Below, in pieces: positions 18,780 through 48,757 of a DNA stretch of 64,000 bases. The translations under genes were made by a program, and so were the position numbers. The notes under the pieces were generated by a model. It worked only from the letters and a program-made list of their open reading frames with translations. It did not search any database and was not told where the DNA came from. Source of the stretch: Parabacteroides sp. (GTDB taxonomy: Bacteria; Bacteroidota; Bacteroidia; Bacteroidales; Tannerellaceae); contig JAGBDR010000064.1 in assembly GCA_017937385.1 (NCBI GenBank), forward strand, positions 1 through 64,000. The letters are read 5' to 3'. The first letter of the stretch is position 1. Each line of letters begins with the position of its first letter.

Positions 18780-18922
18780 TTGTTTCTTATTTTAAATTCA
18801 ATAAAAATCGTATCTCTTCTATTTGAGATAAAAAAACTTTTTGTGACAAAAATGCCTCGCTATTATTGCTTGCGAAACTAAAAAAGTCTTTACTAATTTC
18901 TATTGATGTAAAATAAGAAACG

Positions 18923-19906: not shown

Positions 19907-19907
19907 T

Positions 19908-21269: not shown

Positions 21270-21277
21270 GCACCGGA

Positions 21278-22673: not shown

Positions 22674-22674
22674 C

Positions 22675-23838: not shown

Positions 23839-23847
23839 TGCCTCTCA

Positions 23848-24687: not shown

Positions 24688-24692
24688 CCTCT

Positions 24693-27354: not shown

Positions 27355-27386
27355 ATTCCGCTTTTTACGGTTCATCTATCAAGCGA

Positions 27387-31662: not shown

Positions 31663-32130
31663 ATGCTTATTTTATATATGTCTGTTTTGTTTGGAAACAT
31701 ATTAGGATGCCTTCTCGGCGGGTTCCTGTTGAGTTTGTTGCTCACCGGCATCTGCTACCTTATCCCCAAAGGGATGTATGCACATCCGCAACACTCGGTT
31801 GGCAGTATCGCAGTCTTGCTTGTCAGTTTCTTTTTCTTCCTGTTCCAATCCACTCTGCTGGTAGGCGGATTCAAAGCGAAACGATATGTCGGGCAAGCGA
31901 AAGCTGCCGTCGAATCGTTTTCAAACGGGAACCCCGCCACCATACTTCCGGAAAAAAGCAATGGCCAAATCAACTGGTACATCGCCCGCCGGTTCGGATG
32001 GCTGGTGGGCGGACTACTCGTAACCGGGGTGGCAATGTACAGGCTTTGCGAGGAAGACAAACGGCGTGCCACCACGAGATACAGAAGACATTACCCCAAT
32101 CGTCATTCATCAAGAAGATATCACAAATAA
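31663..32130 (+). CDS. Small membrane protein, first gene of the tubulin unit
   Basis: A 155-aa protein with three predicted membrane helices (about 5-33, 46-69 and 110-127) and a strongly basic C-terminal tail (residues 130-155, rich in Arg, His and Tyr). No family is recognised. It lies 20 nt before the tubulin-like gene, so it is probably cotranscribed and could recruit the GTPase to the membrane. That role is inference. Confidence 0.7.
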   Translation: MLILYMSVLFGNILGCLLGGFLLSLLLTGICYLIPKGMYAHPQHSVGSIAVLLVSFFFFLFQSTLLVGGFKAKRYVGQAKAAVESFSNGNPATILPEKSNGQINWYIARRFGWLVGGLLVTGVAMYRLCEEDKRRATTRYRRHYPNRHSSRRYHK

Positions 32131-32150
32131 CATCAAAACATATAAACTGT

Positions 32151-35100
32151 ATGGCAAATCATTTAATCATAGGATTAGGAGGCACAGGAGGACAAATCTT
32201 GTGCGGGTTACGAAAACGCATCTTTGCGGAAACCGGTAAAAAAGTTATCAGTGGAGACACGAATATCGAATACCTATACGTAGATTCATCCACCGATGAC
32301 TTGGACAACCGCTCCAACTGGACTTATATGGGAGAACCCCTTCATCTCTCACCAGCACAAAAAGTATGTATCCATGGGATGAGAGCCGATGTAATGCAAA
32401 ATCCCCATGCTTACCCGGGTATCGAAGCATTCCTGACAGAGCACGACCGCCAACTGCTTCAAAACGATCAAGTACAGTCTATCATCGATACCGGTATCGG
32501 TGGCCAACGTCGTCGGTTCGGCCGTATGCTGATTGCCAACAATATCGGTACACACGATCTGCAGAGAAGCTTTACTTCACGTTTAAAAGAACAAACCCTT
32601 CAATTAATCAATAGAGGAGATGGCAGGCTTGACTTTCATGTCTGCGCCGGTTTGGCCGGTGGAACCGGCTCCGGTTCCGTCATCGATGTCATTGCCCAAA
32701 TCCGAAAAGAAACCGCCCACATGGGTGATCATTTCCGCCTGTTCCTTTATTTATATGTACCCGAAATATTGGTTCCTGACAAACATAACTCCGGTTACTA
32801 CCATGCCAACGGATACGCAGCACTTGCGGAACTCAATGCCTTGTCGTTAAACCAATATCACCCGACAGACGTCACTGGGGAAAAAGATTATCAGACCCAA
32901 AAAGTCGCCCGTCTTCTGAATGACTGTGACGCATTTACCAAAGCATATCTATTCAGTAACTTCAACGAAGAGAACAAAGTGCTTCCTAAGTCGGGAAAAC
33001 TGACGGATGCCGTCGCCGATTTCATCTATCAACGCACAGTTGTCCCTGGGGAAGTGGGGGAAAATGGTACGATGGCACGTTTGGTGAATGCCGAAAACAA
33101 TGGAAACGCCCCGGAGAAAGACGAAGCGGGTGTGAATGTCCATTCACGTGAGTGCGTCACATTCGGTACAAAACGGATAGAATATCCCGAAGAGGAAATT
33201 ATCGAATATGTTTCGCTCGAATATACGGCCCAAGTCGCCAAACAATTGGCTTTCAACAATTGGGTGGACAGTCGTGGATTCGACACATGCAGCATTGACG
33301 AGGTGGGGTTGGGTTATCGCGCCTCATTCACGACTACAGATCAGCAAGTACTCGAAACACTAAAAATTTCCGACCGTTACGTGACCCTCCAGACAGCCAT
33401 CAAAGATATCCCAGGGGTGACAAACAACTGGCAGGAATATTACAGCTATTGGGAGAACATCACCCACTTCTTCGGCACAGACGCGATGGATGGCAAACAG
33501 AAAACCTGGTTTGACACGTTCAACGACAATTGCGAGATTGAATATAACACAAACTTCCGAAACGGGGGTGTCGTCCATTTCTTCGAACAGCAACAATCCG
33601 AAAACAATGGATATGCCGCCCACATCAGAAAGCACATAGAAAGCCTGTTGTTCGGTGAATGGCTTGGCGGAAACAAATCGCTGCTCGAAGTGATTAAGTA
33701 TGTACAGCTGCTGATTTCTGTGAACGAAGAACGTATAACCCAATTCGACAACCGGATTGCCGAGACCAACAACTATATCCAAACGACTACGCTTATCGAT
33801 ATCGAAGCAATCAACAACGAATGGAACCACCAAGGTATTTTTGACAGGGCCAGAAGGATATTTAACAAATATCAATCGGCAAAATGCGAACTCTACACCG
33901 CAAAAACCGAAATGGAAAGCTACAAGTATGCCAAAACACTGCTCTTGAAAGTGAACGAACAACTCGGAATGATGCTGCAAGGCATGATAGATTTCAACAC
34001 CTCACTCGATGCCGTGTTAAAAGGAGCCCTCTTATCTGCACAAAACAAATGCAAAGTCAAACCGGACACCGCAACTGGAGAAGCAGAAGTGCTTGACAAG
34101 AAATATGACCCGGAAAGAATCCGCCAAATTACCAAAAACTTCGTAATCGACCGAGAAAGACAAAGAAATTGCGCAAGGGATGTCCGTGAGGCATTAGTGA
34201 GACCATTAGGGGAAGACAGGCGTACGTTTGCCTCCCTGAACGACAGTTTGGGCAGCTACGACGAAATGACAAGAAGTATCCTCAATGTTTGTGAAAACCA
34301 TGCCAAAGCAGACCTCACAGATTTAGGGAACAGGGACCATACCCTGAAAGTGCTGAATGTGAATATCCTTGATAAAATCAGGCAAGAATACCCGACCGAC
34401 GAAGCCCTGGAAAACTACGTCAGAGGACTGATCCAACAAGCCACCTGCTTCATGCAATTCGCCCCCGCAGAAATGGGCAGAGTCATTGCCGGACAACCGG
34501 CCCTCGGTATGAATCGGATGGTCCAATTGTGCCTGCCGGCCAATAGCGAAAATCCAAAATTCCGTGAAAAATTCATTCAAGTCTTTGCCAATCAGTACCC
34601 CGGATTCAACCCTGAAACAGATGTGGCACTACACAACAAGAGCCATCAGATGGTAATCGTATCGGCCTCCTTCTCCATGCCACTCCGCTACATCAACAAC
34701 TTGAGATTCATGGAACAGAAATACAGAGAACTAACCCACGGTCCACAGGCGGAATTAAACAAAGTACTGCTTCATACCGAATCGTTTACCAATCCGCTCC
34801 CGGAGCTTTTCGAAGCAAACAATACAGACAAACGGGCACGGCTTCTTCCTTATTCAGCCATCCTCCACAGCTTGGGAATCCTGGAAGATAAAACCGATCC
34901 TGAAACAGGTGCCACATTCAAGGCTTTCAGCATCGGAAGCGGATTCAGCCGTAGATGGGTACGCGTAGGAAAACAGATGGAAGAAACAACGAGACTATTG
35001 GTACAAGATGCCGTGCTCGCCAGATCTATCACAGACTTCATTGACAATCTGTTAGCTACCGAATACAGGTTGAACAGCAAGAAAGCAGAACTGAGAACCG

Positions 35101-35225
35101 CACTTGAAAACACAGTATGCAATACGATTCTGCCGCTTTGCGGTAACAATGACCTCGACCCACTGTTCGTGGAATACCGTACGGCCGCAGAGAAGCTCTT
35201 TGCAGATAAATTAACAGACAGATAA
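32151..35225 (+). CDS. Large tubulin/FtsZ-like GTPase homologue (Tubulin_2 type)
   Basis: A 1,024-aa cytoplasmic protein. The N-terminus has the glycine loop IIGLGGTGGQI (6-16), followed by the tubulin signature AGLAGGTGSGS (166-176), which contacts GTP phosphates in tubulin and FtsZ. The HANGYAALAEL segment (218-228) lies where this family has a conserved helix. This fits the bacterial tubulin-like family (Pfam Tubulin_2, from memory) rather than FtsZ itself, which is about 350-450 aa. The remaining 700 residues are helical, with charged coiled stretches around 530-610. The frame stays open 148 codons upstream, but that part overlaps the membrane-protein gene; the ATG at 32151 is chosen. The family's function is unknown; filament formation is possible. 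Confidence 0.85.
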   Translation: MANHLIIGLGGTGGQILCGLRKRIFAETGKKVISGDTNIEYLYVDSSTDDLDNRSNWTYMGEPLHLSPAQKVCIHGMRADVMQNPHAYPGIEAFLTEHDRQLLQNDQVQSIIDTGIGGQRRRFGRMLIANNIGTHDLQRSFTSRLKEQTLQLINRGDGRLDFHVCAGLAGGTGSGSVIDVIAQIRKETAHMGDHFRLFLYLYVPEILVPDKHNSGYYHANGYAALAELNALSLNQYHPTDVTGEKDYQTQKVARLLNDCDAFTKAYLFSNFNEENKVLPKSGKLTDAVADFIYQRTVVPGEVGENGTMARLVNAENNGNAPEKDEAGVNVHSRECVTFGTKRIEYPEEEIIEYVSLEYTAQVAKQLAFNNWVDSRGFDTCSIDEVGLGYRASFTTTDQQVLETLKISDRYVTLQTAIKDIPGVTNNWQEYYSYWENITHFFGTDAMDGKQKTWFDTFNDNCEIEYNTNFRNGGVVHFFEQQQSENNGYAAHIRKHIESLLFGEWLGGNKSLLEVIKYVQLLISVNEERITQFDNRIAETNNYIQTTTLIDIEAINNEWNHQGIFDRARRIFNKYQSAKCELYTAKTEMESYKYAKTLLLKVNEQLGMMLQGMIDFNTSLDAVLKGALLSAQNKCKVKPDTATGEAEVLDKKYDPERIRQITKNFVIDRERQRNCARDVREALVRPLGEDRRTFASLNDSLGSYDEMTRSILNVCENHAKADLTDLGNRDHTLKVLNVNILDKIRQEYPTDEALENYVRGLIQQATCFMQFAPAEMGRVIAGQPALGMNRMVQLCLPANSENPKFREKFIQVFANQYPGFNPETDVALHNKSHQMVIVSASFSMPLRYINNLRFMEQKYRELTHGPQAELNKVLLHTESFTNPLPELFEANNTDKRARLLPYSAILHSLGILEDKTDPETGATFKAFSIGSGFSRRWVRVGKQMEETTRLLVQDAVLARSITDFIDNLLATEYRLNSKKAELRTALENTVCNTILPLCGNNDLDPLFVEYRTAAEKLFADKLTDR

Positions 35226-35248
35226 TAATCAGATAAAAAAGAAATAAT

Positions 35249-35833: not shown

Positions 35834-35838
35834 AAAGT

Positions 35839-36837
35839 ATGAAACCCTTACCTATATATTATATTCTATTACTTGTAGCAATGGCTAACCATGCCATTGC
35901 TACAAATCCCGTATCAAGCATCAACGCGACTTTTCTCACTCGCCATGACTCGATATTGACCGGACAGCCGAATCAACATACGATCTTCCGTTTCTTCTGC
36001 CGGTACACGGAAGAATTACAAAAGTTATCTTCTAAAACACAAAAACAAAAAATACAATCAGACGACATCATCATCCACGCAGGTGATTTAACCAGTCTCT
36101 CGTTCATCAACGACAGTACAGCCCTGCAAATAGAGACCAGAAACAAAAGACATTACATCCGGTTGAATAACCAGGGAATCCTTTTTTTCGAAATGTCAAC
36201 CCCGCAATCGTATGAATTGCTGGCCGGAAAAGACAAAAAAGAACTGGAGAACGGCTTCATCAAAGAAATTACCGATTTCAACGAACCGCCCGTTTCTCAA
36301 TCGGACCTGTCCGACTTGAACATCACCGACTCGCTTTCAGTGTATACTGAAAACGGACAGATATTCCACATTCCAGAAATAGCATTCAAGCGTTATTACC
36401 GGAAAAACGGACATGGTTACCAACTGCTGGTCGACCCTGCATTTCCGGAAGAAAGTGTCTATAACCTTTTCCTTTCCGAGCAGACGCCCGGCCAATACAC
36501 CCTGCAATTGAAACTCCGCAAATACGGTTTCAAAAAGGAAAATTTTGAAGTATCCCTGAAGAAATGGATTCAATTTTGCGAATATACCGGTTGCGAATGT
36601 TATGCAGGAATAGAGAAGATAGAGAATGGGAAAATACACGCGGCCATTTTCGCCGTAAACACGACCCTGCAATATAACCACGTCATGTATGTCGCGATGC
36701 CACAAGAACTGTTGGCCCGGCAGGAAGGAAACATCACGGGGGAAGTGCACGTCTATATACCCACCGACAACATCAAAGAGTTAATCGGTGAATACAAGGA
36801 AAAGAATAAAGTATATAAAATAAATATCAAGAAATGA
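35839..36837 (+). CDS. Exported protein of unknown function
   Basis: A 332-aa protein with a cleavable signal (to about residue 21, MANHAIATN). The rest is a mix of beta strands and helices, with a central SVYTENGQIFHIPEIAFKRYY stretch and a C-terminal region rich in Lys. It has no lipobox and no barrel-like C-terminus, so it should be soluble in the periplasm or secreted. I do not recognise a family. Its stop overlaps the next start (ATGATGA), indicating translational coupling. Confidence 0.72.
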   Translation: MKPLPIYYILLLVAMANHAIATNPVSSINATFLTRHDSILTGQPNQHTIFRFFCRYTEELQKLSSKTQKQKIQSDDIIIHAGDLTSLSFINDSTALQIETRNKRHYIRLNNQGILFFEMSTPQSYELLAGKDKKELENGFIKEITDFNEPPVSQSDLSDLNITDSLSVYTENGQIFHIPEIAFKRYYRKNGHGYQLLVDPAFPEESVYNLFLSEQTPGQYTLQLKLRKYGFKKENFEVSLKKWIQFCEYTGCECYAGIEKIENGKIHAAIFAVNTTLQYNHVMYVAMPQELLARQEGNITGEVHVYIPTDNIKELIGEYKEKNKVYKINIKK

Positions 36838-37709
36838 TGAAAAAGATTTTTTGTATTCTGACAGCATGCCTGTTTTGTTCTACATTGATGGCACAGAACA
36901 TCATGGAAAAAACAAAAAAAGAGATGAACCGCATCAAGTTATCCCGGGCATATATCAGTTCCGAAGCAACGATGCCGACCCTGCAAGAAGCAATCGACAT
37001 CGCCAACGAATCCCTGCTTCAATCTATTGACCAATGGGTGAAAGAGGAAAAGAAATACCAAGGTGTAAAACAAGTGGCGATACAAGACATCAATTCCTGC
37101 CTTGAAAAAATGGATATGAACCGGGGTAACAACGTACGTGTGCTGGTCTATATCAAGAAAAAGGACATCATTCCGATTTACGGAAACGGGCAGATATTGT
37201 TGACCGATGACGAGCAAGAGGAAACAGCAATCGCACAGGCGGTCACCCCGAAACCCGTCAGAGAAACAGTGCAACCGGAACAGACAAACCCGGAAACGCC
37301 CCGACCCAAACAGGAACAATCGAAACCGAAGCAAGAACAGTCCCTGCCAGTTCAATCAACATCAATAGAATCAGCCCCGGTACATAAGCCGAAGCAAGCG
37401 CCCGTCAGACAAGAACAAGCGCCTCAGATGTCCAATTTGCAACGTATCCTGGCAGCCCGGACCATGAATGACATCAAAGTCATTTTTCATGAATTGAAAG
37501 AAAATTACGCCATCACATACGGGAAATACAATTCGACAGAATTGGATATTTCCACCTGCTATCTGCTCTTTTACGACCGACAAGGACAAATTACCGGCAT
37601 ATTGGGTCAAGGAGGACAAAAGCGCATGAATCTTCGAACCAACCAACTGGAATCGATGAACCAGTATAACGGAAATGCCGCCTATTGGTTCATACTAACT
37701 AAAGAATAA
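36834..37709 (+). CDS. Exported protein with Pro/Gln-rich linker
   Basis: A 291-aa protein with a signal peptide (to about residue 21). An N-terminal helical domain (about 22-120; TLQEAIDIANESLLQSIDQWV) resembles LPP20-like or curli-assembly-like periplasmic domains only loosely. A Pro/Gln/Lys/Glu-rich linker (about 138-200, repeated KPKQEQ) separates it from a C-terminal domain of about 90 residues ending NAAYWFILTKE. The linker would span the periplasm or peptidoglycan. Function unknown. It overlaps the previous gene by 4 nt and lies 13 nt before the duplicated pair. Confidence 0.7.
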   Translation: MMKKIFCILTACLFCSTLMAQNIMEKTKKEMNRIKLSRAYISSEATMPTLQEAIDIANESLLQSIDQWVKEEKKYQGVKQVAIQDINSCLEKMDMNRGNNVRVLVYIKKKDIIPIYGNGQILLTDDEQEETAIAQAVTPKPVRETVQPEQTNPETPRPKQEQSKPKQEQSLPVQSTSIESAPVHKPKQAPVRQEQAPQMSNLQRILAARTMNDIKVIFHELKENYAITYGKYNSTELDISTCYLLFYDRQGQITGILGQGGQKRMNLRTNQLESMNQYNGNAAYWFILTKE

Positions 37710-37722
37710 AAAACAAAGAAAC

Positions 37723-38736
37723 ATGAGACATTCTATTTTACAAACAGCAACGATTCTTTTCCACCTTATCCTTTTACCCTGTTTTATCAGGGCTGAAGGT
37801 TCAGTACGTTTGACATTGAAGGATACTTCTTCTGCCCCCAAACAGGCGATCGAACAAAACGCAAGTGCCTTGTTAAGCCAGATCAACCAAGCGTTCGACG
37901 CGAAACAGAGCGGACTGGACCTGAAGGAAATCGACATAACCGACAAGGCCAAAGAGTCATTGGCCTCTCTTTGGGCAAACGTCCATTTCAAATGTGACGA
38001 CAGCGACGTGATACAGGACTGCCTGACTACAAGCAGCGGATTCCAAGTACGCCAGATCCCATTACTCATCGAGCCGCAAGGAGCTACCACCGCTGATGAT
38101 TCCTATCAAGAGGCGGTCATCAACTTCGAACCGTCAGGACAGATTTCCAGCTTCTATTTTACCATCGGTACAAATCTTTACTCCAAGGTAATGAGTAGCA
38201 AAAAAGAGGTGACAGATATCCGTCGACGTATGCAAATACTTGACTATGTAGAGCATTTTCGTACAGCCTACAATCAAAAGGACATCAACTTCTTAGAGCA
38301 GGTATTCAGTGACGATGCGTTGATCATCGTCGGTAAAGTCGTCAAAACACAACCGGCAGATATCAACAACTTTGTCGGACAAACAAAAGTAGAATTCATC
38401 AAACGGACCAAACAGGAGTACTTAAACAATCTCAAAAAAACTTTTGTAGCAAATAAATTCATCAATGTCAAATTTGATGAAATTAAAGTAGTGAGACATC
38501 CCAATCCGGCTAAAAAGGATTTTTACGGTGTCACACTGCACCAACTCTATTCATCCAGTACATACAGTGACGACGGTTATCTATTTCTGCTGTGGGACTT
38601 CAAAGAGGAAGATAGCCCCAAAATCCATGTTCGTACTTGGCAACCTAAATATACAGACAACTCCAAGAGCCAAATAGCCACTCCGGAAGATAAAATCTTC
38701 ACGATAAGCGATTTTGAAATTGATATTGATATTTAA
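37723..38736 (+). CDS. Exported protein, first copy of a tandem duplicate, NTF2-like region
   Basis: A 337-aa exported protein (signal to about residue 24). Residues 160-225 (VEHFRTAYNQKDINFLEQVF then DALIIVGKVV) resemble an NTF2-like/SnoaL cone, a fold that often binds small ligands or peptidoglycan; this is a motif-level guess. It is about 90 percent identical in protein to the next gene by eye, with an almost base-identical block near the 5' end. It starts 13 nt after the previous gene, and the second copy follows after 17 nt. Function unknown. Confidence 0.72.
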   Translation: MRHSILQTATILFHLILLPCFIRAEGSVRLTLKDTSSAPKQAIEQNASALLSQINQAFDAKQSGLDLKEIDITDKAKESLASLWANVHFKCDDSDVIQDCLTTSSGFQVRQIPLLIEPQGATTADDSYQEAVINFEPSGQISSFYFTIGTNLYSKVMSSKKEVTDIRRRMQILDYVEHFRTAYNQKDINFLEQVFSDDALIIVGKVVKTQPADINNFVGQTKVEFIKRTKQEYLNNLKKTFVANKFINVKFDEIKVVRHPNPAKKDFYGVTLHQLYSSSTYSDDGYLFLLWDFKEEDSPKIHVRTWQPKYTDNSKSQIATPEDKIFTISDFEIDIDI

Positions 38737-38753
38737 CAAAAAAAGAAACAAAT

Positions 38754-39761
38754 ATGAAACGGACAATTTTACAAGTAACAACATTCTTTGTCGCTCTTCT
38801 TTTTCAACCTTGTTTTATCCAAGCAGAAGATTCGGTTCGTTTGACATTGAAGAATGCTTCTTCGGCTCCGAAACAGACGATCGAACAAAACGCAAGTGCC
38901 TTGTTAAGCCAGATCAACCAAGCGTTCGACGCGAAACAAAGCGGACTGGACCTGAAGGGAATCGATATAACCGACAAGGCCAAAGAGTCATTGGCCTCTC
39001 TTTGGGCAAACGTCCATTTCAAATGTGACGACAGCGACGTGATACAGGACTGCCTGACTACAAGCAGCGGATTCCAAGTACGCCAGATCCCATTACTCAT
39101 CGAACCGCAAGGAGCAACGACTGCCGACGACACCTACCAGGAAGCCGTCATCAGCTTCGAGCCTTCGGGACAGATATCCAGTTTTTACTTTACCATCGGC
39201 ACGAATCTTTACTCCAAGGTGATGAAAAACGGAAATGAAGTTACGGATGTACGCCGACGTATGCAGATCCTTGACTACGTGGAACATTTCCGTACTGCCT
39301 ACAATCAAAAAGACATCAATTTTCTGGAACAGGTGTTCAGTGATGATGCGTTGATCATTGTTGGCAAAGTCGTCAAAACACAGCCCACCGACATCAACAA
39401 TTTTGTCGGACAAACAAAAGTGGAGTTCGTTAAACGAACCAAACAGGAGTACTTAAACAATCTCAAAAAAACTTTTGCAGTAAACAAATTCATCAATGTC
39501 AAATTTGATGAAATCAAAGTAGTGAGACATCCCCATCCGACAAAAAAAGACTTCTATGGTGTTACACTTCACCAACTCTACTCATCCAGTACATATAGCG
39601 ACGACGGCTACTTGTTCTTACTTTGGGACTTCCGTAACGAAGATGCCCCACAAATACACGTCCGCACTTGGCAACCCAAATATACGGACAATACCAAGAT
39701 ACAAATAGCTACCCCGAAAGAAGAGATTTTCCAATTAGGCGATTTTGAAATTGATATTTAA
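38754..39761 (+). CDS. Exported protein, second copy of the tandem duplicate
   Basis: A 335-aa protein, the paralogue of the preceding gene with the same signal, N-terminal domain and NTF2-like region. Differences concentrate in the signal peptide, in residues about 155-162 (KNGNEV versus SSKKEV) and at the C-terminus (EEIFQLGDFEIDI). The stretch 38887-39115 is almost base-identical to 37849-38095, whereas codons after it differ at many third positions, suggesting gene conversion of the 5' half after an older duplication. The two products could form a heterodimer. Confidence 0.72.
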   Translation: MKRTILQVTTFFVALLFQPCFIQAEDSVRLTLKNASSAPKQTIEQNASALLSQINQAFDAKQSGLDLKGIDITDKAKESLASLWANVHFKCDDSDVIQDCLTTSSGFQVRQIPLLIEPQGATTADDTYQEAVISFEPSGQISSFYFTIGTNLYSKVMKNGNEVTDVRRRMQILDYVEHFRTAYNQKDINFLEQVFSDDALIIVGKVVKTQPTDINNFVGQTKVEFVKRTKQEYLNNLKKTFAVNKFINVKFDEIKVVRHPHPTKKDFYGVTLHQLYSSSTYSDDGYLFLLWDFRNEDAPQIHVRTWQPKYTDNTKIQIATPKEEIFQLGDFEIDI

Positions 39762-39779
39762 TAAAAAGATACATCAACC

Positions 39780-41162
39780 ATGTTATTAAAAAGATATCTA
39801 CTTTTCGTGCTATTATGGGTCTATGTTTTTAATGTACCTCTTGTTGCCCAAGAGAAAATCGTCAAAATCACAGACCTGAAAGAGTTGAACACGAATCTTT
39901 CAAATGCAAACGAGGCTATTGTCTTGGTGAAATCCGCCATCGAAGATATCGAGGTTAAAACCAATATGGACAATCCGATTGACAAGCCAAGCACAACATC
40001 CAACGGTGTTTTCACCTATAAACTGGTCATCCGAATCGGAGAAGACGAATTGGACGGAGCAAAGGTAGTCAGCCGACAAATCCAAGTCAGCAGCCAATAT
40101 GGGAACGCCAATCTGAAATGCAAAATAGCTCCCGGCAAACAATACGAATGTTTCTTCAATGTTCCCCCCGAGTTCGCCTACGCCGACGAGAGTGTAAGCG
40201 GAGGGCTATATGCATCTTCCCAAGCGCAGATAGCCTTTATCAGCACCATTCCCACATTGACAATCAACTATAACAAAAGGGAAGTCGTCAAAGAGGGAGT
40301 CATACAAGCCTCACTCCCCACTTATCTGACCGTCAGCAAAGAAGACAATACCTATTTTTTTCGTTTTGCATTGGACAGAACAGAAACGCAAACCGAATCT
40401 TTCAAAAAACCGGTATTCCAAATTATTCACACCGATGAAACGGGAGAAACCAATCAGTTGGAAATCCGCTTAAATGAGGCACAGGAGGTAAAGGCTAAGA
40501 CCAGCCTTAAATACCGTATTTTCTATAAAAACATTGTTGGAGGAAAAGATTCATTTGCCGAACTGATAGAAAAAGCTCGCTCCGAAGAAGAAGAAAAAGA
40601 CTTTCTGTCTGCCGCCGAATACTATAGAAATGCTCGTAAACACACAGATTGTCCCAAAGACCAAGAGACCGAATTGGAAGCATTGATGCAGGAAATGTAC
40701 AAATGGAGAAAAATAGACTTCATGGTCAACAAATTCTTGAGCGATGCCGAAAGGGTCGAAAGTACCAAAGGGTTTACTGACGATAGTGTCTTCATCTACA
40801 ATCGAGGAGTCATACGTTGCCTGAACGATTTGCTGGAGAAATATCCGGACTACCAACCCTATTTGGAAAAGAAGGAAGAATTGGAGAAAAAACTGGAAAA
40901 ACATCCGATGAACTTCAAGACAGAGGTACAAACTAAAATCGTTCACCACCAAGTAATCACCGGAAAGGGATACAAAGGCGGAATCGACATCTTCGCCGCC
41001 TATTCGAAGAAAAAGAACACCAAAGACCAAGATCGCATCGGACGCACCCGAAGCGACGGAACTTTCCGAATCGTATTGGAAAACGAACTGAACTACCTTT
41101 ATTTTTATGGAGATAAGGAAGCTACACCGATCACTCCATATACGAAAGTACTCAATAGGTAA
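39780..41162 (+). CDS. Exported multi-domain protein of the tubulin unit
   Basis: A 460-aa protein with a signal peptide (to about residue 24, VAQEKIVKI). The first half is beta-rich; the opening KITDLKELNTNLSNANEAIV is reminiscent of the first strand of PEGA-like modules in the protein encoded at 42094-42942. Residues about 260-380 are helical, with a TPR-like pair (FLSAAEYYRNARKH). The last 60 residues look like a small beta domain (GGIDIFAAYSKKK, RSDGTFRIVL) of the carboxypeptidase-regulatory type. No family is assigned. It is probably a periplasmic scaffold. Confidence 0.7.
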   Translation: MLLKRYLLFVLLWVYVFNVPLVAQEKIVKITDLKELNTNLSNANEAIVLVKSAIEDIEVKTNMDNPIDKPSTTSNGVFTYKLVIRIGEDELDGAKVVSRQIQVSSQYGNANLKCKIAPGKQYECFFNVPPEFAYADESVSGGLYASSQAQIAFISTIPTLTINYNKREVVKEGVIQASLPTYLTVSKEDNTYFFRFALDRTETQTESFKKPVFQIIHTDETGETNQLEIRLNEAQEVKAKTSLKYRIFYKNIVGGKDSFAELIEKARSEEEEKDFLSAAEYYRNARKHTDCPKDQETELEALMQEMYKWRKIDFMVNKFLSDAERVESTKGFTDDSVFIYNRGVIRCLNDLLEKYPDYQPYLEKKEELEKKLEKHPMNFKTEVQTKIVHHQVITGKGYKGGIDIFAAYSKKKNTKDQDRIGRTRSDGTFRIVLENELNYLYFYGDKEATPITPYTKVLNR

Positions 41163-41189
41163 ATTATTAATTTTTAAATACAAATAAAC

Positions 41190-42077
41190 ATGAAAGCAAA
41201 ATCCATTGACATCAGTTGGACCTTAATCGCAATATTATTCATCTGCTTACCAGATATGGCTTTCGGCTTAAACCAGAAAAAGGGGAAAGAGAAAAAGCCT
41301 AAAAAGGAATTCGTATGGGACTGGGACGGCAAAAAAACCGGAGTCCAAGAGGTAGATGACTATCTGTTAGGATGTGACAGTTTGTGGACCGGCATAGAAA
41401 ACTTTAGAAAAGATGTTGACAGCTACGAATACTACGATCATACTTTCAGTGTAAACGATAAGAAATACACGACTGTATTCATGATCGATACGATCAACAA
41501 GAACTTTTTAAGTCCCGGACTTGTCAACTGGCAATTTACACAATCAACGGGAGCCGTCACCTTGCTGGCATTAACCGCAACTAATTTGGCCCTACAGACA
41601 ACAAATGCAACAATGGCTCTACCGAAATTAGGGTTGAACGCCTTTTCATACGGCAAATATATCAAAGCAGGTCCGATCATCATCGGGAAAGCCAAAAAAG
41701 AATTCGACACCATCCGTTCCAACTATACATTGACCCGTCGCCGTTTCTTGACAGCCCGTAAAGAATCCATTCCGATGGAAGAATATCCAACGGAACTAAA
41801 AGAGAAATTAAAAGAATTGTTCGCCATCCAAGACGACAAGACGTTCGAAAAATACTTCAAAAAACATATCCTCGTCATTGAGTATGTAGAAAAAGCAGAA
41901 CAAGAGGTAGTAGACGAAGTGGTCAAGGTCGAAAAAACGGAAGAAGAAAAAGACCAATCGGCAGACAACATTCACATAATCAATGCCTCCGATTACGGTT
42001 TGGCAGATACTCCGGAGGGAGAAACGGAACCTACCGTGACGGAAGAAGATACGGAAAACTATTTATCATACAATTAA
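41190..42077 (+). CDS. Exported protein of unknown function with acidic tail
   Basis: A 295-aa protein with a signal peptide (to about residue 27), a very basic segment (KKGKEKKPKKE), a central TGAVTLLALTATNLALQTT region that is weakly hydrophobic but too polar for a clear membrane helix, a charged helical region (170-250) and an acidic C-terminus. No family is recognised. It is placed between the multi-domain protein and the barrel, 27 and 16 nt from them. Confidence 0.68.
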   Translation: MKAKSIDISWTLIAILFICLPDMAFGLNQKKGKEKKPKKEFVWDWDGKKTGVQEVDDYLLGCDSLWTGIENFRKDVDSYEYYDHTFSVNDKKYTTVFMIDTINKNFLSPGLVNWQFTQSTGAVTLLALTATNLALQTTNATMALPKLGLNAFSYGKYIKAGPIIIGKAKKEFDTIRSNYTLTRRRFLTARKESIPMEEYPTELKEKLKELFAIQDDKTFEKYFKKHILVIEYVEKAEQEVVDEVVKVEKTEEEKDQSADNIHIINASDYGLADTPEGETEPTVTEEDTENYLSYN

Positions 42078-42093
42078 CATAAACATTTATCAA

Positions 42094-42942
42094 ATGAAGC
42101 ATTGGATCATCATAAGCTTACTATTTTGGGTAAGCCTACCTGCTTTTACGCAGGAAATTCGCGTCAAATCTTACAAACAACTGAACAACGACCTCACCGC
42201 CCGTACCATGGAACGGTTGGACGGAAACGATGAACCTTGTTCAATCATTAAAATCACATCTACCGGGAAAGGTTTTACTTTTGGTGGAGATGTCATAGGT
42301 GAACCGATTATCCGAACAGGAGAAACTATGATTTACGTACCGGAAGGAACCCGACGGATCACTATACGCCACCCGAAATACGGAGTCTTACGTTATGAAA
42401 TTCCTCGCGTCCAAAAACAGGCCGTCTACGAATTAGTATTGAAACTGATCGAAGACAAAAACAACAAAATAAGAACTCTGGTATTACCTACATTAGGATA
42501 TAACCCGGAGCAACTCTCATACGGTCTCATGGTCGGGTTGGTCAAAAGGACTGGTGGCTATGTAAAAGCAAAATACAACTTCAACAATCTATCGACCAGC
42601 GGATGGGAATGCAACGATACAGGAACACTCCTTGACGGGGCTGAAAGCCTCCCTTGGTATTCCGGACATACGGAAACCAGCCGTTTGGCTATTACGGGTG
42701 GATTATTACAACGATTATGGAAGAGCGGTTATATCTACGCCGGTGCCGGATGGGGATTCCGAACTTTGGGATGGGAAACGACTGATGGTATGTGGATAAA
42801 AAACATAGACCATTCTTATAGAGGAGTAGAAGCCGAATTGGGCTTGATTCTACGTTTTGGTGGATTTGCGGTTTCAGCAGGTGCACAAACAAACCAATTC
42901 AAATATGTGGAAGCCAATATGGGCATCGGTATTATGTTCTAA
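42094..42942 (+). CDS. PEGA-like domain plus beta-barrel-like exported protein
   Basis: A 282-aa protein with signal peptide (to about residue 19, PAFTQEIRVK). Residues 20-125 form a PEGA-like module common in Bacteroidota (KSYKQLNNDLTA, IYVPEGTRRITIRHPKYGVLRYEIP). Residues 140-282 are a barrel-like domain ending VEANMGIGIMF. Its SRLAITGGLLQRLWKSGYIYAGAGWGF and GVEAELGLILRFGGFAVSAGA segments match the protein encoded at 23848-24687 in the caspase unit. An outer-membrane anchor for lipoproteins of the same unit is inferred. Confidence 0.78.
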   Translation: MKHWIIISLLFWVSLPAFTQEIRVKSYKQLNNDLTARTMERLDGNDEPCSIIKITSTGKGFTFGGDVIGEPIIRTGETMIYVPEGTRRITIRHPKYGVLRYEIPRVQKQAVYELVLKLIEDKNNKIRTLVLPTLGYNPEQLSYGLMVGLVKRTGGYVKAKYNFNNLSTSGWECNDTGTLLDGAESLPWYSGHTETSRLAITGGLLQRLWKSGYIYAGAGWGFRTLGWETTDGMWIKNIDHSYRGVEAELGLILRFGGFAVSAGAQTNQFKYVEANMGIGIMF

Positions 42943-42958
42943 TTTCAACAAAAGAAAA

Positions 42959-44431
42959 ATGAAACAATACAAATATATCTTATTAACATGCTTGATGACC
43001 GGTTTCTTCGCATGCGAAGAAGATACCGCACCGGAGATGATGGCGCCGGCTCTGTCATTAGAGGCCCCATCAGATCGTGGACGTTCTTTCATCACACTCA
43101 ACGGGTACATCTCCGAACTTAGCCAGGTGAAAGAAGCAGGGTTCGTACTTTGGGAAACCGGAACAGAAGGAACCGAACTTGAATTTCCCCAACAAGAATT
43201 TTCGGATAACCGAATCCAAAGCCTTGTCAAGAACTTGAAGCCAGGTACGACCTATTCCTATTACCTATATGCGCAAAACGGAATCAACCGGACAACAACG
43301 GAAGAACAAGATTTCACCACTCCCAAAACTTCCGCAGCATTGGTCGGGGAAACCCAAAAAGACGGAACAACATTTACGGCAACTATTGAAGACGACGGCG
43401 GAAGTAGTATCACTACCAAGGGTTTTTGTTGGAGTACAACAGGAAAAGCATCCATCTTCGACAATACTGTTTTGATTGAAGGCTCCAATTCCGATATAAC
43501 AGCAACAATTCCAGAGTTGGCATCAGCCATCTCCTATTCGGTCCGTGCTTTCGCACAAAACAAAGAAGGATATCTGGCGTATGGAGCGGAAATTCGTTAT
43601 GTCAATGAAGAATTTCCGTTGAACATACCGAACGGCCCGTTCAAAGACTACTTGTTACAAAATTTCGATCTAAATCATGATGGAGCCATCTCTAATTTGG
43701 AAGCAGAGAATGTAACACATATTGAAATTCGTACAACAAATATTCAATCATTGAAAGGAATTGAATATTTTACCAATTTACAATCTTTGATTTGTACCGG
43801 CAATATAGAAGAGGGTGCCTGGAAAGAAGAAGGATTACTGACTGACTTAGATATCAGTAATAATAGGCAATTGACTCATCTGGAATGTGGAAATAATCAA
43901 TTGACAAAGTTGAATCTTAGTTATAATACAGCATTGACATATTTAAATGTATCCCAAAATCGACTTTCCCAATTAGATATAAGTAACAATTTAGATCTAT
44001 TTTGGTTTAATTGTTCGCACAATCCGATCAAGTCCATAGACATCAGCAAACATACAGGGCTAAGATATTTATATATCCACGGGACAGAGATGGAAACAAT
44101 TGATGTCAGTCAAAATCGGGAATTGGAATTACTTTGTTTGCAATCTTGCAAATTCAAACAAGTGGATGTCCATCAGAACCTTAAATTGCAAGAGTTAATG
44201 TGCGATGGAAACGAACTAACCAATTTAGATTTATCCCAAAATGCAATGTTAAATACTCTGCAATGCGCATATAACAATTTAACCTCGTTGGATATCAGTA
44301 ACCAATCCGGGTTAGTCTATTTGGATTGCTTGAATAATCCATTACAGACAATCTGGGTCTGGAATGGGTTCAACAAAGCAAACGACGCGAATTTTAAGAA
44401 ACCGGCAAATGCCACTTATAGAGTAAAATAA
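42959..44431 (+). CDS. Surface lipoprotein: FN3-like stalk, EF-hand-like loop, LRR tip
   Basis: A 490-aa lipoprotein (signal ends GFFACEED). Two FN3-like domains (about 25-115 and 120-215) form a stalk shared with the next gene. A loop DLNHDGAISNLE (about 240) has EF-hand or dockerin spacing and is followed by at least eight leucine-rich repeats of the LDISNN-x-x-LTHLECGNNQL type. The ORF can be extended upstream to 42857, but that overlaps the barrel gene; the ATG 16 nt after its stop is chosen. The repeat-coding part is clearly more AT-rich than the stalk-coding part. It probably displays the LRR face outside the cell for protein or glycan binding. Confidence 0.85.
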   Translation: MKQYKYILLTCLMTGFFACEEDTAPEMMAPALSLEAPSDRGRSFITLNGYISELSQVKEAGFVLWETGTEGTELEFPQQEFSDNRIQSLVKNLKPGTTYSYYLYAQNGINRTTTEEQDFTTPKTSAALVGETQKDGTTFTATIEDDGGSSITTKGFCWSTTGKASIFDNTVLIEGSNSDITATIPELASAISYSVRAFAQNKEGYLAYGAEIRYVNEEFPLNIPNGPFKDYLLQNFDLNHDGAISNLEAENVTHIEIRTTNIQSLKGIEYFTNLQSLICTGNIEEGAWKEEGLLTDLDISNNRQLTHLECGNNQLTKLNLSYNTALTYLNVSQNRLSQLDISNNLDLFWFNCSHNPIKSIDISKHTGLRYLYIHGTEMETIDVSQNRELELLCLQSCKFKQVDVHQNLKLQELMCDGNELTNLDLSQNAMLNTLQCAYNNLTSLDISNQSGLVYLDCLNNPLQTIWVWNGFNKANDANFKKPANATYRVK

Positions 44432-44432
44432 T

Positions 44433-46286
44433 ATGGACAAAATTAAACGCATATTCTATTTCTTAATGGCTATTACATTGATCGCTTGCGAGAAAGATAC
44501 AGCTCCAGAAACAACCGTATTGGAAATCCGAACGGAAGATCCAACCAACTATGGCCGCAAATCCGTTACGCTAAACGGAAGTATTTCCGATCCGGATGCC
44601 GTACAAGAAGCAGGATTCCTCTTTTGGAAAACAGAAGACAAAGATCATGCCATTGATCTGCCCTGCGAAGAGATCGGTGATCAGATATTCGCAGTCGCCG
44701 ACGGGTTAATCACAGGAGAATCGTATGTATATTGTTGTTATGTCGGCAACGGCATCAACCGCATGATGGGACAAACCAAAAGTTTCCGAACTCCAACAAT
44801 TGGCGTACCATTAATCTCCAAACCTGAATGGATAGATGAACGGACCGTCAGAGCCCAAATTTGGGATGATGGCATAGATGAAAGCGGATCACATATCGTA
44901 GCCAAAGGTTTCTGCTGGAACACCACTGGACGACCAACCGTATTCGATCAGAAAATAGTCATAAACAATGAGGACTCTTTCGAAGCTCAATTACCCGGAA
45001 TTCAAAGTAATACGGATGTGTATATCCGTGCTTTTGCACAAAACGACAGTTCTTATTTGGCTTATGGACCGGAAAACAAAATTTATATCGAAAGAAAAGG
45101 TATCAATTCGTTAGATGAATTAAGAATGTTCAAAGATGAACTAAATAATGAAGAAGATATTTCTTCTTGGCTGGACAACGGAACTGTTTATTTGAATTGT
45201 GACATTGATATGTCTGAATTGCCTGGATTTTATGATTTTTCAATTGATTATTGTGATTTCGTTTTTGAAGGGAATAATCACACAATTAAAATCAATGCAT
45301 TCTATCCGAATGGCTACGAAGAAGACTTTATCACTTTAGGCCTTTTCAAGCAAATTTCAGAAAAAGGGATCGTGCGAAATTTGAATATCGATTACACAGG
45401 ACAGAATTATGGTGTTCTATATATTGATAAATCCGCAAACATCGGCAATATCGCCGGACATAACTGGGGAACAATAGAAAACTGTACTTCCCATAAAACA
45501 AGTTTTTATGTCGGTCCGGAAGGCAAATATACCAGTGTCGGAGGTATTTGTGCTTATAATAGTGGTACAATCGAGAATTGTACTAACTATGGCGATATCA
45601 CCGGTTCATGGCTTGTCGGAGGTATTTGCGCTGTTAACTGGGGAATTATAAAAAATTGTAGAAACTTTGGCAACATATCAAACATTTATCACGAAGATGG
45701 AGATGGAGATTGTACTTGCGGTATAGCATTTTCCTCCAATGGAATCATTCATGCTTGTGAAAATCATGGAGATATAACAGGTGAAAGCGCATGGAACTCT
45801 GGAATTGGTTCAACTATAAATTCTTCCTACATTACTGAATGTATAAACTTCGGCAATGTTAAAGGTTATTGTAACGTCGCTGGCATTTCAGCAGAAATAA
45901 GCGACTCTACTATTGTTGAAAAATGTACCAACAATGGCGATATCACCCTATTAGTCTCCGATTATAATCATAATAAGAGTGTTGGAGGTATTGCAAGTTA
46001 TGTAGGATATATAACAAATGAAACAGCAACATCAGGAATCATCCTTAACTGCAAAAATACAGCGCACATTACCGATGAAACATCAATAGGAGATATTGGT
46101 AACATTGCGGGAGTGATCAATGTCAAAGGCAAAGTGGAAGGATGCATATATGGTGGAACCGTCAATGGTGCTACTGGAACAAGAGAAAATGCCATCGGAC
46201 GAATCGAAACCGGCGGTTCGTTCAAGAGTTTGAAATCTAAATCAGCAAGCAGTTCCACTCGAATACCTTTCCAGTTCAAAGAATAA
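44433..46286 (+). CDS. Surface lipoprotein: FN3-like stalk with GLUG-type repeat tip
   Basis: A 617-aa lipoprotein (signal ends TLIACEKDT). The two FN3-like stalk domains are paralogous to those of the preceding gene (for example KGFCWNTTG versus KGFCWSTTG, and YIRAFAQN versus SVRAFAQN). The tip is a right-handed beta-helix-like array of GLUG-type repeats (GGICAYNSGTIENCTNYGDI, GGICAVNWGIIKNCRNFGNI and about six more). GLUG repeats occur in surface and adhesion proteins. Only 1 nt separates it from the preceding gene. The tip-coding region is AT-rich relative to the stalk. It is likely displayed on the surface beside the LRR protein. Confidence 0.85.
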   Translation: MDKIKRIFYFLMAITLIACEKDTAPETTVLEIRTEDPTNYGRKSVTLNGSISDPDAVQEAGFLFWKTEDKDHAIDLPCEEIGDQIFAVADGLITGESYVYCCYVGNGINRMMGQTKSFRTPTIGVPLISKPEWIDERTVRAQIWDDGIDESGSHIVAKGFCWNTTGRPTVFDQKIVINNEDSFEAQLPGIQSNTDVYIRAFAQNDSSYLAYGPENKIYIERKGINSLDELRMFKDELNNEEDISSWLDNGTVYLNCDIDMSELPGFYDFSIDYCDFVFEGNNHTIKINAFYPNGYEEDFITLGLFKQISEKGIVRNLNIDYTGQNYGVLYIDKSANIGNIAGHNWGTIENCTSHKTSFYVGPEGKYTSVGGICAYNSGTIENCTNYGDITGSWLVGGICAVNWGIIKNCRNFGNISNIYHEDGDGDCTCGIAFSSNGIIHACENHGDITGESAWNSGIGSTINSSYITECINFGNVKGYCNVAGISAEISDSTIVEKCTNNGDITLLVSDYNHNKSVGGIASYVGYITNETATSGIILNCKNTAHITDETSIGDIGNIAGVINVKGKVEGCIYGGTVNGATGTRENAIGRIETGGSFKSLKSKSASSSTRIPFQFKE

Positions 46287-46322
46287 ATTTTCCGAATAAT
46301 CTTAATAAACAAATAAATAAAA

Positions 46323-46874
46323 ATGAAAAAGTTATTATTTTTTATCGTATGGATCGCTAGTATTTTATCAGTACATGCGCAAGATGCTTTCATGAAGGGA
46401 GATAACCTAATTAGTGCAAAAATCGGTATTGGTAATGGTTTGGCGTTTTCTGGTACATATGAAAAATGTATTCTGGACGGTTTGTTCCGAAATGAAAACG
46501 GAGCAATCGGTCTCGGCGGTTATTTGGGTTATGCACATGACAAAGTAGAAATGTCGGAACAAGGCATTACGGTCGGTTGCAAATACAACGATATCATTAT
46601 CGGGGTACAAGGGAACCTGCACATGCAATTCGTTGACCGTTTGGATACCTATGCCGGTGCTATGCTCGGATATGAAATCGTCAATTCCAAACACTACGGA
46701 CAAAGTGATGATCCCAATTTCGACTATAGCCACTATCTTGAGGCTGATGTCAGCGGTATAACGTTTTCGCTTCATGTGGGTGCACGTTATTATCTGACCG
46801 ACAACATCTCAGCTAACGTGGAATTAGGTTACGGGGTGGCTTTTGCTAACATCGGATTATCTTATCGATTCTAA
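46323..46874 (+). CDS. Small outer-membrane beta-barrel protein
   Basis: A 183-aa protein with signal peptide (to about residue 19, SVHAQDAF) and eight or so amphipathic strands with aromatic girdles (KIGIGNGLAFSGTYEKC, GLGGYLGYAHDKV, DIIIGVQGNLHMQF, TYAGAMLGYEIV, GITFSLHVGARYYL, NISANVELGYGVAFANIGL) and a terminal Phe (SYRF). This fits an OmpA/OmpX-like eight-stranded barrel. It lies 36 nt after the GLUG lipoprotein gene. Its role in the unit is unknown; an envelope anchor or a small pore is possible. Confidence 0.82.
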   Translation: MKKLLFFIVWIASILSVHAQDAFMKGDNLISAKIGIGNGLAFSGTYEKCILDGLFRNENGAIGLGGYLGYAHDKVEMSEQGITVGCKYNDIIIGVQGNLHMQFVDRLDTYAGAMLGYEIVNSKHYGQSDDPNFDYSHYLEADVSGITFSLHVGARYYLTDNISANVELGYGVAFANIGLSYRF

Positions 46875-46918
46875 ATGTAACATATCAGTTTTTATAAACC
46901 TTTTTAATTCAAAAAATA

Positions 46919-47953
46919 ATGAACAAAAAAAACATTCTTGACTACACATTCAGCATTCTTTTATGTTGCTTCTTGTTTCCCACAGCCATCCAAGCACAAT
47001 CTTTCTTAAAAAAGACATTGAAAGTATTGGACGCTGTAAACGAGATCAATAAAACGAATAATACATCCAAAGAAGAAAACAACAAACAGAACAATGTACA
47101 ACTCAATACGAATACCCCAAACGGATTCCGCATCACCGCTCCTTTTCAGGATCTGATGTTCAAAATCAGAAGTTGTACAGCAACAGGTTCCACTATAACC
47201 CTTGAACTCACCGTTAAGAATCGGGGAAAGAACCAACATTTTATGTTTGGCGGTGATGATCAAAGAGTACGTACGATCGTTGTTGATGATCAAGACAATT
47301 CGTATGATTATGAGAAAATAAAAATCGCTTTTGGAGATGAATATGCCGAAATATGTAAAGGACAACTATTCCCTACCAATGTGCCTATTAAAATGCATAT
47401 TTATATCAATGATGTCGATCCTTCTGCACAAATGATCACCATGTTTACCCTTCGGGTCGAAGGATTCGATACCCCGATTACATTTTACAACATTCCTATA
47501 GAACATCCGGTCGCCATTATTTCAACCGAAGACAAAGGGAATACTTCAACAAAATCGCCAACCAACGTTTCATTCATGAAAGACGAACAAAAAGACACAC
47601 AAACAATCTCGCAACTTAAAATGATAATTGGAAAATGGCAATTAGTATCCCAAAAAAAAGACGGTAAAGAGATTCCATTCAAATCATGTACCTTAGAATT
47701 TCACAAAACACCAGAAGATGACCCGTATAACAAAAACATGACCGAGACGATCGCTGGAAAAACACAAAAAAGCGGATACGGAATTATACCGGGTAAAGAC
47801 GAACTCTCCATGTGTCTTCCAAGTCTGACTAACGATGAAGAAGACAACGGATATATAATCAAAACTGTCGATACCCAAAAACTTATTTTAACTTTTAATT
47901 ACAATGGTGTTCCCGGTACCAGTGGTGAGCTTACATTTATAAAAATCAATTAG
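46919..47953 (+). CDS. Exported protein with lipocalin-like C-terminus
   Basis: A 344-aa protein with a signal peptide (to about residue 26, AIQAQSFLK), an Asn/Lys/Thr-rich linker (44-65), a beta-sandwich domain (about 70-200; STITLELTVKNRGKNQHFMF) and a C-terminal region (235-344) that looks lipocalin-like (LKMIIGKWQLVSQKKDGKE and KLILTFNYNGVPGTSGELTF). Small lipocalin-like domains of this kind are common in Bacteroidota lipoproteins. Function unknown. It is the last intact gene of the tubulin unit. Confidence 0.7.
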   Translation: MNKKNILDYTFSILLCCFLFPTAIQAQSFLKKTLKVLDAVNEINKTNNTSKEENNKQNNVQLNTNTPNGFRITAPFQDLMFKIRSCTATGSTITLELTVKNRGKNQHFMFGGDDQRVRTIVVDDQDNSYDYEKIKIAFGDEYAEICKGQLFPTNVPIKMHIYINDVDPSAQMITMFTLRVEGFDTPITFYNIPIEHPVAIISTEDKGNTSTKSPTNVSFMKDEQKDTQTISQLKMIIGKWQLVSQKKDGKEIPFKSCTLEFHKTPEDDPYNKNMTETIAGKTQKSGYGIIPGKDELSMCLPSLTNDEEDNGYIIKTVDTQKLILTFNYNGVPGTSGELTFIKIN

Positions 47954-48202
47954 TTTAACGTCAATACATTTACAAAATGAAAAAAAATTTCAATTTTTAT
48001 TACTACTTGAGTGGTATTTGTTTACTGAGTTTACTTTTTTCATTCACATCTTGCAAATCAAAGATGGATGAAAAAGAAGTTTACAAATATTTTAAAGAAT
48101 CACCAGCCGTCACCTTGTATGCGACATGTTGCTTTACAAAAGAACAACCTGATTTGAAAGATGATTTCTTAGGAAAATGTAGAGAATATTATTACAAAGC
48201 TT

Positions 48203-48356
48203 ATAATTACACAGGGCAACCGCATCAAAATTTCATCAACTACTTAACTTGCTGATAATCAAATGTGACATTTTATAATATTGGATAAGATACAAAATAA
48301 ACCAGTATTGATTATCAGATTGTTAAGAATTTGATGCGGTTGCCCTGATAATTACA
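48203..48356. repeat. 9-bp target-site duplication ATAATTACA flanking the MITE
   Basis: ATAATTACA is present at 48203-48211 and again at 48348-48356, exactly abutting the two ends of the inserted element. Both copies are unmutated, which points to a recent insertion. Confidence 0.9.
48212..48347. mobile_element. 136-bp non-autonomous element (MITE)
   Basis: The ends are perfect 18-bp inverted repeats, CAGGGCAACCGCATCAAA (48212-48229) and its complement (48330-48347). A second inverted pair, CTGATAATCAA and TTGATTATCAG, lies inside, so most of the element can fold into one long imperfect hairpin. It has no coding capacity and must have been mobilised by a related transposase elsewhere. A 9-bp target duplication is compatible with several families, including IS4-like; the parent element is not in this window. 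Confidence 0.9.
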
Positions 48357-48757
48357 AGATCGTTGACATATATGATTTCCAAGTTACCGACCAAAGTGTT
48401 GAAGGCTACCTCATCCTTGAACCAACAAATGAAACAAAAGCTTGTGAAAAGTTCGATACAGAACATAAAAATACTCCACATAAAGCACAAGTGGAAACAA
48501 AAATGAAATGTTCTTTTGAATTCAATAAAATAGAAGGGAAATGGAAGTTGATAAAATTCCAATCTGAACAATACCTCAGAAGATATTGGGATAAAAACGA
48601 AGGATGTGAAAACTCTAAGTGGAAAGATTTGATCGATTTGGATATGTTACGTCATCGAGACCGGAAAGTTTATGAATATTAAATAAAAAATCTCCCCTTT
48701 TTAGGATGAACTCCCAAAAGTTAGCAAGATCAAGGAGACGGTATCAAAATTCAACAA

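Follow-up and report, generated by a model that had tools for sequence, protein, structure and literature searches.

A tubulin-family GTPase gene of Parabacteroides sp. within a conserved envelope gene set: a possible interchangeable head of a trans-envelope signalling system

The FtsZl1, or Tubulin_2, family of bacterial tubulin-like proteins was described by Makarova and Koonin in 2010 (PMC2875224). The available portions of that article report envelope neighbours and an idea of membrane remodelling, state that some portions of the common filament interface went unrecognised in the family, name Bacteroides caccae in the legend of an alignment of all families, and include a reviewer's query as to how a cytoplasmic FtsZ-like protein acts with periplasmic and outer-membrane partners. 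The family is thus already known, while its function has been open since that description. Here, a stretch of 64,000 nucleotides from the gut bacterium Parabacteroides sp. (contig JAGBDR010000064.1, positions 1 to 64,000; hereafter the window) was analysed, in which a member of the family, distantly related to tubulin (gene B), is encoded near the start of a run of 15 genes. The locus offers a testable answer in the form of the connector protein C, encoded directly after B, one half of which is inherited with the tubulin and the other with exported proteins. With a probability of about one half, the locus encodes a trans-envelope signalling system of modular build, with C as the connector and the tubulin as one of several cytoplasmic heads that can replace one another.

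The 15 genes, called A to N here (F is present as two copies), were delimited with a plain longest-open-reading-frame caller instead of a trained gene finder. They are all on the + strand, span 31663-48255 and are separated by intergenic gaps of -4 to 44 nt, in line with the preliminary description of a co-directional run with gaps below about 50 nt. The first of them are as follows:

31663..32130, +: A, small membrane protein of 155 aa, 5' of the tubulin gene
32151..35225, +: B, Tubulin_2 / FtsZl1 protein of 1,024 aa
35249..35833, +: C, connector with a zinc ribbon, a hydrophobic stretch and a MORN-type C-terminal domain (from alignment and homology)
35839..36837, +: D, probably exported protein of 332 aa, no known family
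36834..37709, +: E, exported protein of 291 aa; weak LPP20-type likeness through a fused relative only
37723..38736, +: F1, exported protein with an NTF2-like domain (Pfam Cds6_C, PF24125, 28.6 bits, cut-off 27)
38754..39761, +: F2, tandem duplicate with 87% identity to F1 by sequence comparison

B had been called clearly tubulin/FtsZ-like, and a profile search bore this out: Pfam PF13809 (Tubulin_2) matched aa 5-363 with E=4.2e-56 (191.2 bits, gathering score 27), and both glycine-rich nucleotide loops, T1 with GLGGTGG (aa 8-14) and T4 with AGLAGGTGSGS (aa 166-176), are present, their glycines being invariant over 17 aligned B sequences. The general Tubulin model (PF00091) stayed under its cut-off (0.0016, 19.2 bits vs 33), and the assignment of B to the tubulin family rests on PF13809 and the glycine loops. 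B is the sole Tubulin_2 match in the window genome (90.5% complete), in which an ordinary FtsZ is encoded on another contig. A longer frame from 31707 was rejected as the tubulin start, because the 16 other aligned sequences begin at, or at most 9 residues before, the position of 32151. Degenerate second tubulin copies were observed in or beside two related operons, namely L042:5329-6444 (-), of 372 aa with changes in both glycine loops, and L046:15430-17586 (-), of 719 aa with the second loop absent, both judged by eye; these are possible pseudo-GTPase partners.

The view of C as a zinc-ribbon, single-pass protein also held: its four cysteines (8, 15, 33 and 36) are invariant in all 18 rows of the alignment, and it has a single hydrophobic stretch (54-72), followed by a MORN-type domain at aa 120-191. 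In some relatives, Ig-like domains lie between the hydrophobic stretch and the MORN end, and Pfam searches of 18 C relatives at E<=0.01 matched MORN in nine and Big_2 in seven. Standard topology rules would place the ribbon in the cytoplasm and the MORN domain in the periplasm. The three membrane helices proposed earlier for A were retained in part, as two hydrophobic stretches are clear (13-31 and 49-67), whereas a third, near residue 115, was seen by eye only.

The conservation of this gene set was followed in a core set of 19 loci with a window-type tubulin from 17 assemblies, taken from the gene-called surroundings of Tubulin_2 matches (L057 repeats part of the L056 genome, and L026, which is the same contig as L042, was counted once). 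C follows B in 18 of the 18 loci where the contig continues (with an extra open reading frame between them in L045), D comes next in 17 of 17 (one extra open reading frame in L058), F is present downstream in all 16 testable loci, and E in 14 of 16, being absent from L044 and L050. Profile or BLAST searches detected relatives of A ahead of B in 14 of 17 testable loci, and tblastn added L043 (E=3e-8), which makes 15 of 17; none was found in L055 and L063. The order B-C-D-(E)-F is kept in every testable core locus, and the set is a recurring one in Bacteroidales. The earlier question of whether the same genes co-occur next to Tubulin_2 genes has therefore two answers: the association of A to F is non-random across loci, but the genes past F change.

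Tubulin_2 is rare and patchy in the genomes sampled, exceeding the cut-off in 16 of 393 genomes of the order and 13 of 123 of the family, and a peptide-pattern search for close relatives returned two loci only. Eight of these 16 order genomes carry the core type, and D and a full-length F were present in all eight, in G239 on a different contig from the tubulin. The other eight hold other Tubulin_2 branches; D was absent genome-wide from seven of them and lies on a different contig in the eighth (G363). Two of these branches have as neighbours a vWA match below cut-off, a papain-type protease and a trypsin-type protease. The D profile was found in 15 of the 393 order genomes.

Comparison of the core loci revealed two co-varying blocks, the tubulin with the zinc-ribbon/transmembrane half of C, and the MORN half of C with D and F, so that the break lies inside C. 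Between the window and L025, identity is 82% for B and 62% for the N-terminal part of C (first 76 residues), vs 40% for the MORN part, 25% for D and 45% for F. L041 and L046 show the reverse (B 29%, N-terminal part 40%; MORN part 80%, D 64%, F 77%), and L044 and L048 again resemble the first pair (76% and 70%; 32%, 30% and 43%). The window and L042 agree throughout (63%, 52%, 72%, 48% and 70%, in the same order). Mantel tests were carried out on 17 loci (500 permutations) and on a reduced set of 13-15 loci without the near-copies L047 and L049 (2000 permutations), to which the following values refer unless stated otherwise. B was correlated with the N-terminal part of C (r=0.50-0.55, p=0.0005), the MORN part with D (r=0.26, p=0.007) and F (0.35, p=0.014), and D, E and F with each other (0.45-0.59, p<=0.001). 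B and the MORN part were unrelated (r=-0.14 and -0.06), as were the GTPase part of B and D, E and F (0.05-0.12, p>0.2) and the two parts of C; the N-terminal part of C against F was borderline (0.22, p=0.09). The coupling through the zinc-ribbon protein, which the preliminary description had proposed, is thus supported by the co-variation of each half of C with its own partners. Judging from these sequences, repeated recombination within gene C between the transmembrane and MORN regions, with each half staying with its partners, would be the simplest account. A tree of F (52 sequences, with head labels assigned by hand from gene maps through Pfam, cluster or eye; 22 of 52 unlabelled) appears to agree in part with this mosaic: tubulin-associated sequences need 6 changes, of which strongly supported branches force at least 4, and the kinase locus L112 falls within a tubulin clade (97/92, 99/94).

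Profile searches of the PDB revealed no credible relative for D or F. The two best PDB matches of E were designed repeat proteins and were rejected, no stretch of E passing alone, and the fused E relative in L123 matched LPP20 at E=0.003, under cut-off. F also occurs inside longer open reading frames (417-634 aa) in L122, L123, L124 and L125, with no tubulin nearby, and proteins of the same cluster follow in three of these four. It is duplicated in tandem in the window (37723-39761) and single in most relatives, with a short extra copy in L056.

The F profile has a wider distribution than the tubulin, having been found in 52 of the 393 order genomes vs 20 at the same E-value limit. In loci without a core tubulin, other genes lie ahead of F: a kinase with a transmembrane segment and MORN (L112), kinase/FHA/PP2C sets (L117 and L118; L120 is the same without PP2C), a kinase (L119), TIR-transmembrane-MORN proteins (L113, L144 and L145), a histidine kinase with a response regulator (L115), and exported proteins including a Sel1 type (L106-L108 and L111). 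These heads have Pfam support in L107, L112, L113, L115, L117, L119, L120, L145 and for one kinase of L118, with L144 just under cut-off, and those of the remaining F loci were assigned by cluster membership or by eye. The TIR_2 model matched in L113 (3.5e-14), L145 (7.6e-9) and L144 (4.6e-6; 27.6 bits, cut-off 28), and Pfam kinase domains were identified in the transmembrane Ser/Thr kinases of L112 and L117.

The MORN domain is shared between these heads and C. A profile of the MORN end built from 17 zinc-ribbon C proteins was run on 1,069 proteins at E<=0.01, and it matched the kinases of L112 (1e-11) and L117 (3e-6, partial), the three TIR proteins (4e-21, 4e-15 and 4e-14) and a MORN lipoprotein-like protein in L141 (2e-19). 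Besides these, the C proteins and a C fragment at a contig edge in L114, no match was found among the 1,069 proteins. F lies downstream of the kinase or TIR head in L112, L113, L117, L144 and L145, and D also in L112, L113 and L117. When the MORN profile was widened and run on the family, 14 matches were obtained in 13 of 122 genomes, 12 of them in C proteins, mostly the rows of the profile itself, and the other two in kinases and weak (~1e-5).

According to the proposed mechanism, periplasmic D, E and F, together with outer-membrane or surface cargo, would report the state of the envelope to C at its MORN domain, and C would relay the signal through its single transmembrane helix to the cytoplasmic zinc ribbon. 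At the inner membrane, the ribbon would make contact with B, the tubulin-family GTPase, and control it, possibly through nucleation or release of a polymer, and A may be a second membrane partner. In related systems, a transmembrane-MORN linker bears a Ser/Thr kinase or a TIR domain in place of the tubulin; because of such heads, a signal running from outside to inside appears more likely than the opposite direction. If a single receptor type does take tubulin, kinase and TIR as alternative heads, tubulin-family GTPases would join the outputs of bacterial signalling. A tentative extension, held with less confidence, is that Bacteroidales possess a plug-in receptor chassis composed of the transmembrane-MORN linker and D-E-F, which accepts tubulin GTPase, Ser/Thr kinase or TIR heads and in which recombination within the linker swaps heads and sensors and a tubulin polymer serves as an envelope-sensing output, perhaps in immunity.

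Several observations weigh against the signalling reading. With regard to the proteins themselves, a PDB profile search with 17 B homologues found no tubulin, and an Hhalign comparison of B with 11 FtsZ proteins of related genomes was weak (30 columns around the second loop, probability 15%). Moreover, as Pfam matches nothing in the C of the window at E<=0.01, the MORN assignment of this protein rests on homology. With regard to the heads, the kinases of L118-L120 end in TPR instead of MORN (by Pfam in L119 and L120, by eye in L118), so MORN is common to only two of five kinase loci, one of them partly; one of the weakly matching kinases belongs to a genome without F (G444); L144 and L145 have F and no recognised D or E; and outside Bacteroidales, no such head was seen in 17 of the 18 F loci, among which are some on short contigs. 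With regard to the mosaic, the MORN part of C and E were uncorrelated (0.08, p=0.30), the N-terminal part of C was borderline against D (0.17, p=0.07; 0.20, p=0.04 with 17 loci), A could be assigned to neither block, and L112 and L113 form long branches of unsure placement in the F tree.

The genes past F are as follows:

39780..41162, +: G, exported; first variable position past F (by locus comparison)
41190..42077, +: H, exported; relatives in L042, L044, L045 and L114 by sequence comparison
42094..42942, +: I, looks like a barrel by eye and matches no Pfam family; paralogous to the gene at 23848-24723 (-), with 33% identity over 233 aa (E=4e-27)
42959..44431, +: J, LRR lipoprotein-like, variable cargo (PF12799, 4.6e-12; lipoprotein call by eye)
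44433..46286, +: K, GLUG-motif lipoprotein-like, variable cargo (PF07581, 2.7e-8; lipoprotein call by eye)
46323..46874, +: L, outer-membrane barrel-like, variable cargo (PF13505, 9.7e-5, under cut-off)
46919..47953, +: M, exported, weakly lipocalin-like, variable cargo (PF13648, 0.012, under cut-off)
47977..48255, +: N, short lipoprotein-like open reading frame (by eye), probably truncated, variable cargo; 50% identity over 78 aa with a protein of 189 aa in L175

A threshold of N-terminal hydrophobicity was passed by E, F1, F2, G, H, L and M, whereas D and I fell below it and yet look signal-like by eye. The genes after F vary by genome and include G/H pairs, PEGA or weak CarboxypepD proteins, FGE-sulfatase-type proteins and other envelope-like proteins; the G position is occupied by CarboxypepD_reg matches below cut-off in L043 and L054 and by PEGA in L063. 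Homologues of L, M or N were found in non-tubulin operons of four genus relatives, picked by their sigma gene. On both grounds, a single unit of 15 genes was rejected, only A to F being conserved. Nor could an end of the run at 48682 be maintained, as the last gene stops at 48255 and the region from there to 48983 looks, by eye, like the broken remainder of N. Scans for promoters and terminators gave counts at the level of shuffled sequence (47 vs 42.8 and 16 vs 16.4). The N-terminal parts of J and K are related (37% over 227 aa) but their ends differ, with LRR vs GLUG repeats, so that their sequences resemble a constant stalk with swapped tips.

The same proteins could be arranged in the opposite direction, with a structural or force-generating tubulin polymer organising or remodelling the envelope and the surface cargo through C. 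Precedent exists in the membrane-remodelling idea and the envelope neighbours of the family (the available part of PMC2875224), the cargo of the window is exported, barrel-like or lipoprotein-like, and the mosaic is as compatible with a mechanical linker as with a signalling linker. However, the domains borne by related linkers, kinase and TIR, belong to signalling or effector types and are not motors, and Pfam recognised in the window operon no gene for a vWA protein, a P-loop GTPase, an OmpA-domain protein or a kinase. This arrangement, although the most probable of the alternatives, appears somewhat unlikely.

A separate operon lies upstream on the opposite strand:

18159..27375, -: Crp-like regulator, caspase-domain protein (C14, 1.4e-13), DUF4384 protein, zf-HC2 anti-sigma factor, sigma-like protein, barrel paralogue of I, and kelch proteins

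This caspase/sigma operon is conserved in G105 and G434 and adjoins the tubulin operon in G000 and G105, while G434 (84% sigma identity) carries a different operon in that place, and the sigma gene was found in six of 38 genomes of the genus. Both facts weaken the case for the upstream operon as a part of the system. In the genus relatives L173-L176, differing envelope operons stand beside sigma/anti-sigma homologues, with a VapE-type gene in L173, L174 and L176, and this neighbourhood appears to be a variable site (L172 was used solely in the BLAST search with the upstream operon).

Another alternative is a defence or cell-death system, in which sensing of phage or competitors at the envelope triggers a harmful cytoplasmic output and the tubulin replaces TIR or kinase effectors; it overlaps with the signalling reading, and both may hold. 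TIR heads do exist, that of L113 matching the Thoeris ThsB models of PADLOC at 1.4e-9, the presence of the tubulin in the family is patchy, and FGE-sulfatase-type proteins, a type reported in conflict systems (in the available part of PMC7159879), lie past F in both the tubulin locus L056 and the TIR locus L144. The caspase-domain gene upstream would also fit, but its operon occurs without the tubulin gene in G434. Searches with PADLOC 2023 on nine window proteins (A-I without F2) gave chance-level matches only (best E 0.028), among them those of E and G, which were discarded; no PADLOC match was obtained for the Tubulin_2 proteins of L041 and L060 or the TIR proteins of L144 and L145, and the PADLOC kinase matches cover kinase domains in general. 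In addition, B had no match in phage records and viral contigs, F none in plasmids and viral contigs, and the operon DNA none in plasmids. A defence role is suggested by the TIR and kinase heads on related linkers elsewhere; as an account of this locus, it ranks second among the alternatives and is unlikely.

A secretion, adhesion or gliding apparatus powered by B, which the barrel-like and surface-lipoprotein-like genes downstream might bring to mind, is improbable, as those genes vary between genomes, some occur in non-tubulin operons, and Pfam scans of the window proteins recognised no known secretion or gliding family. A TubZ-like tubulin for DNA segregation of a mobile element, despite VapE-type and HU-type genes upstream in the window, is very improbable in view of the negative plasmid, phage and viral searches given above and of partners that are membrane and exported proteins.

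Compared with known systems, the locus shares with FtsZl1, as far as the available text of PMC2875224 goes, an N-terminal tubulin-like domain with a long remainder and envelope neighbours. It differs from the operon described in 2010 in that no vWA, distinct GTPase, OmpA-family or kinase gene was recognised among its 15 genes (Pfam E<=1; gene L matches a general barrel model below cut-off), and in having the zinc-ribbon/MORN connector and D-E-F, some of which may be listed in the supplementary gene tables of that paper. The GTPase-centric conflict systems of Kaur et al. 2020 (the available part of PMC7159879) resemble it in having tubulins beside membrane proteins, exchangeable parts and, elsewhere in those systems, FGS domains; their tubulin-bearing members are from Firmicutes and Actinobacteria and have TRAFAC GTPases and vWA proteins, neither of which was recognised in the window operon. 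With regard to F, its match to Cds6_C, just over cut-off, would point, going by the Pfam name, to the domain of H. pylori Csd6. F may touch the cell wall and contact peptidoglycan, because the NTF2 domain of Pgp2 binds peptidoglycan (the available part of PMC8038945); unlike in Csd6 and Pgp2, no carboxypeptidase domain was matched in F of the window. In the literature covered, which was partial and without supplements, no description was found of a MORN linker shared by tubulin, kinase and TIR heads. Among the closest counterparts are also the kinase loci (L112 and L117) and TIR loci (L113, L144 and L145), which have the same kind of MORN ending with F downstream but lack the tubulin and bear a kinase or TIR domain as their cytoplasmic head. 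We propose that the tubulin may fill a slot held elsewhere by signalling domains.

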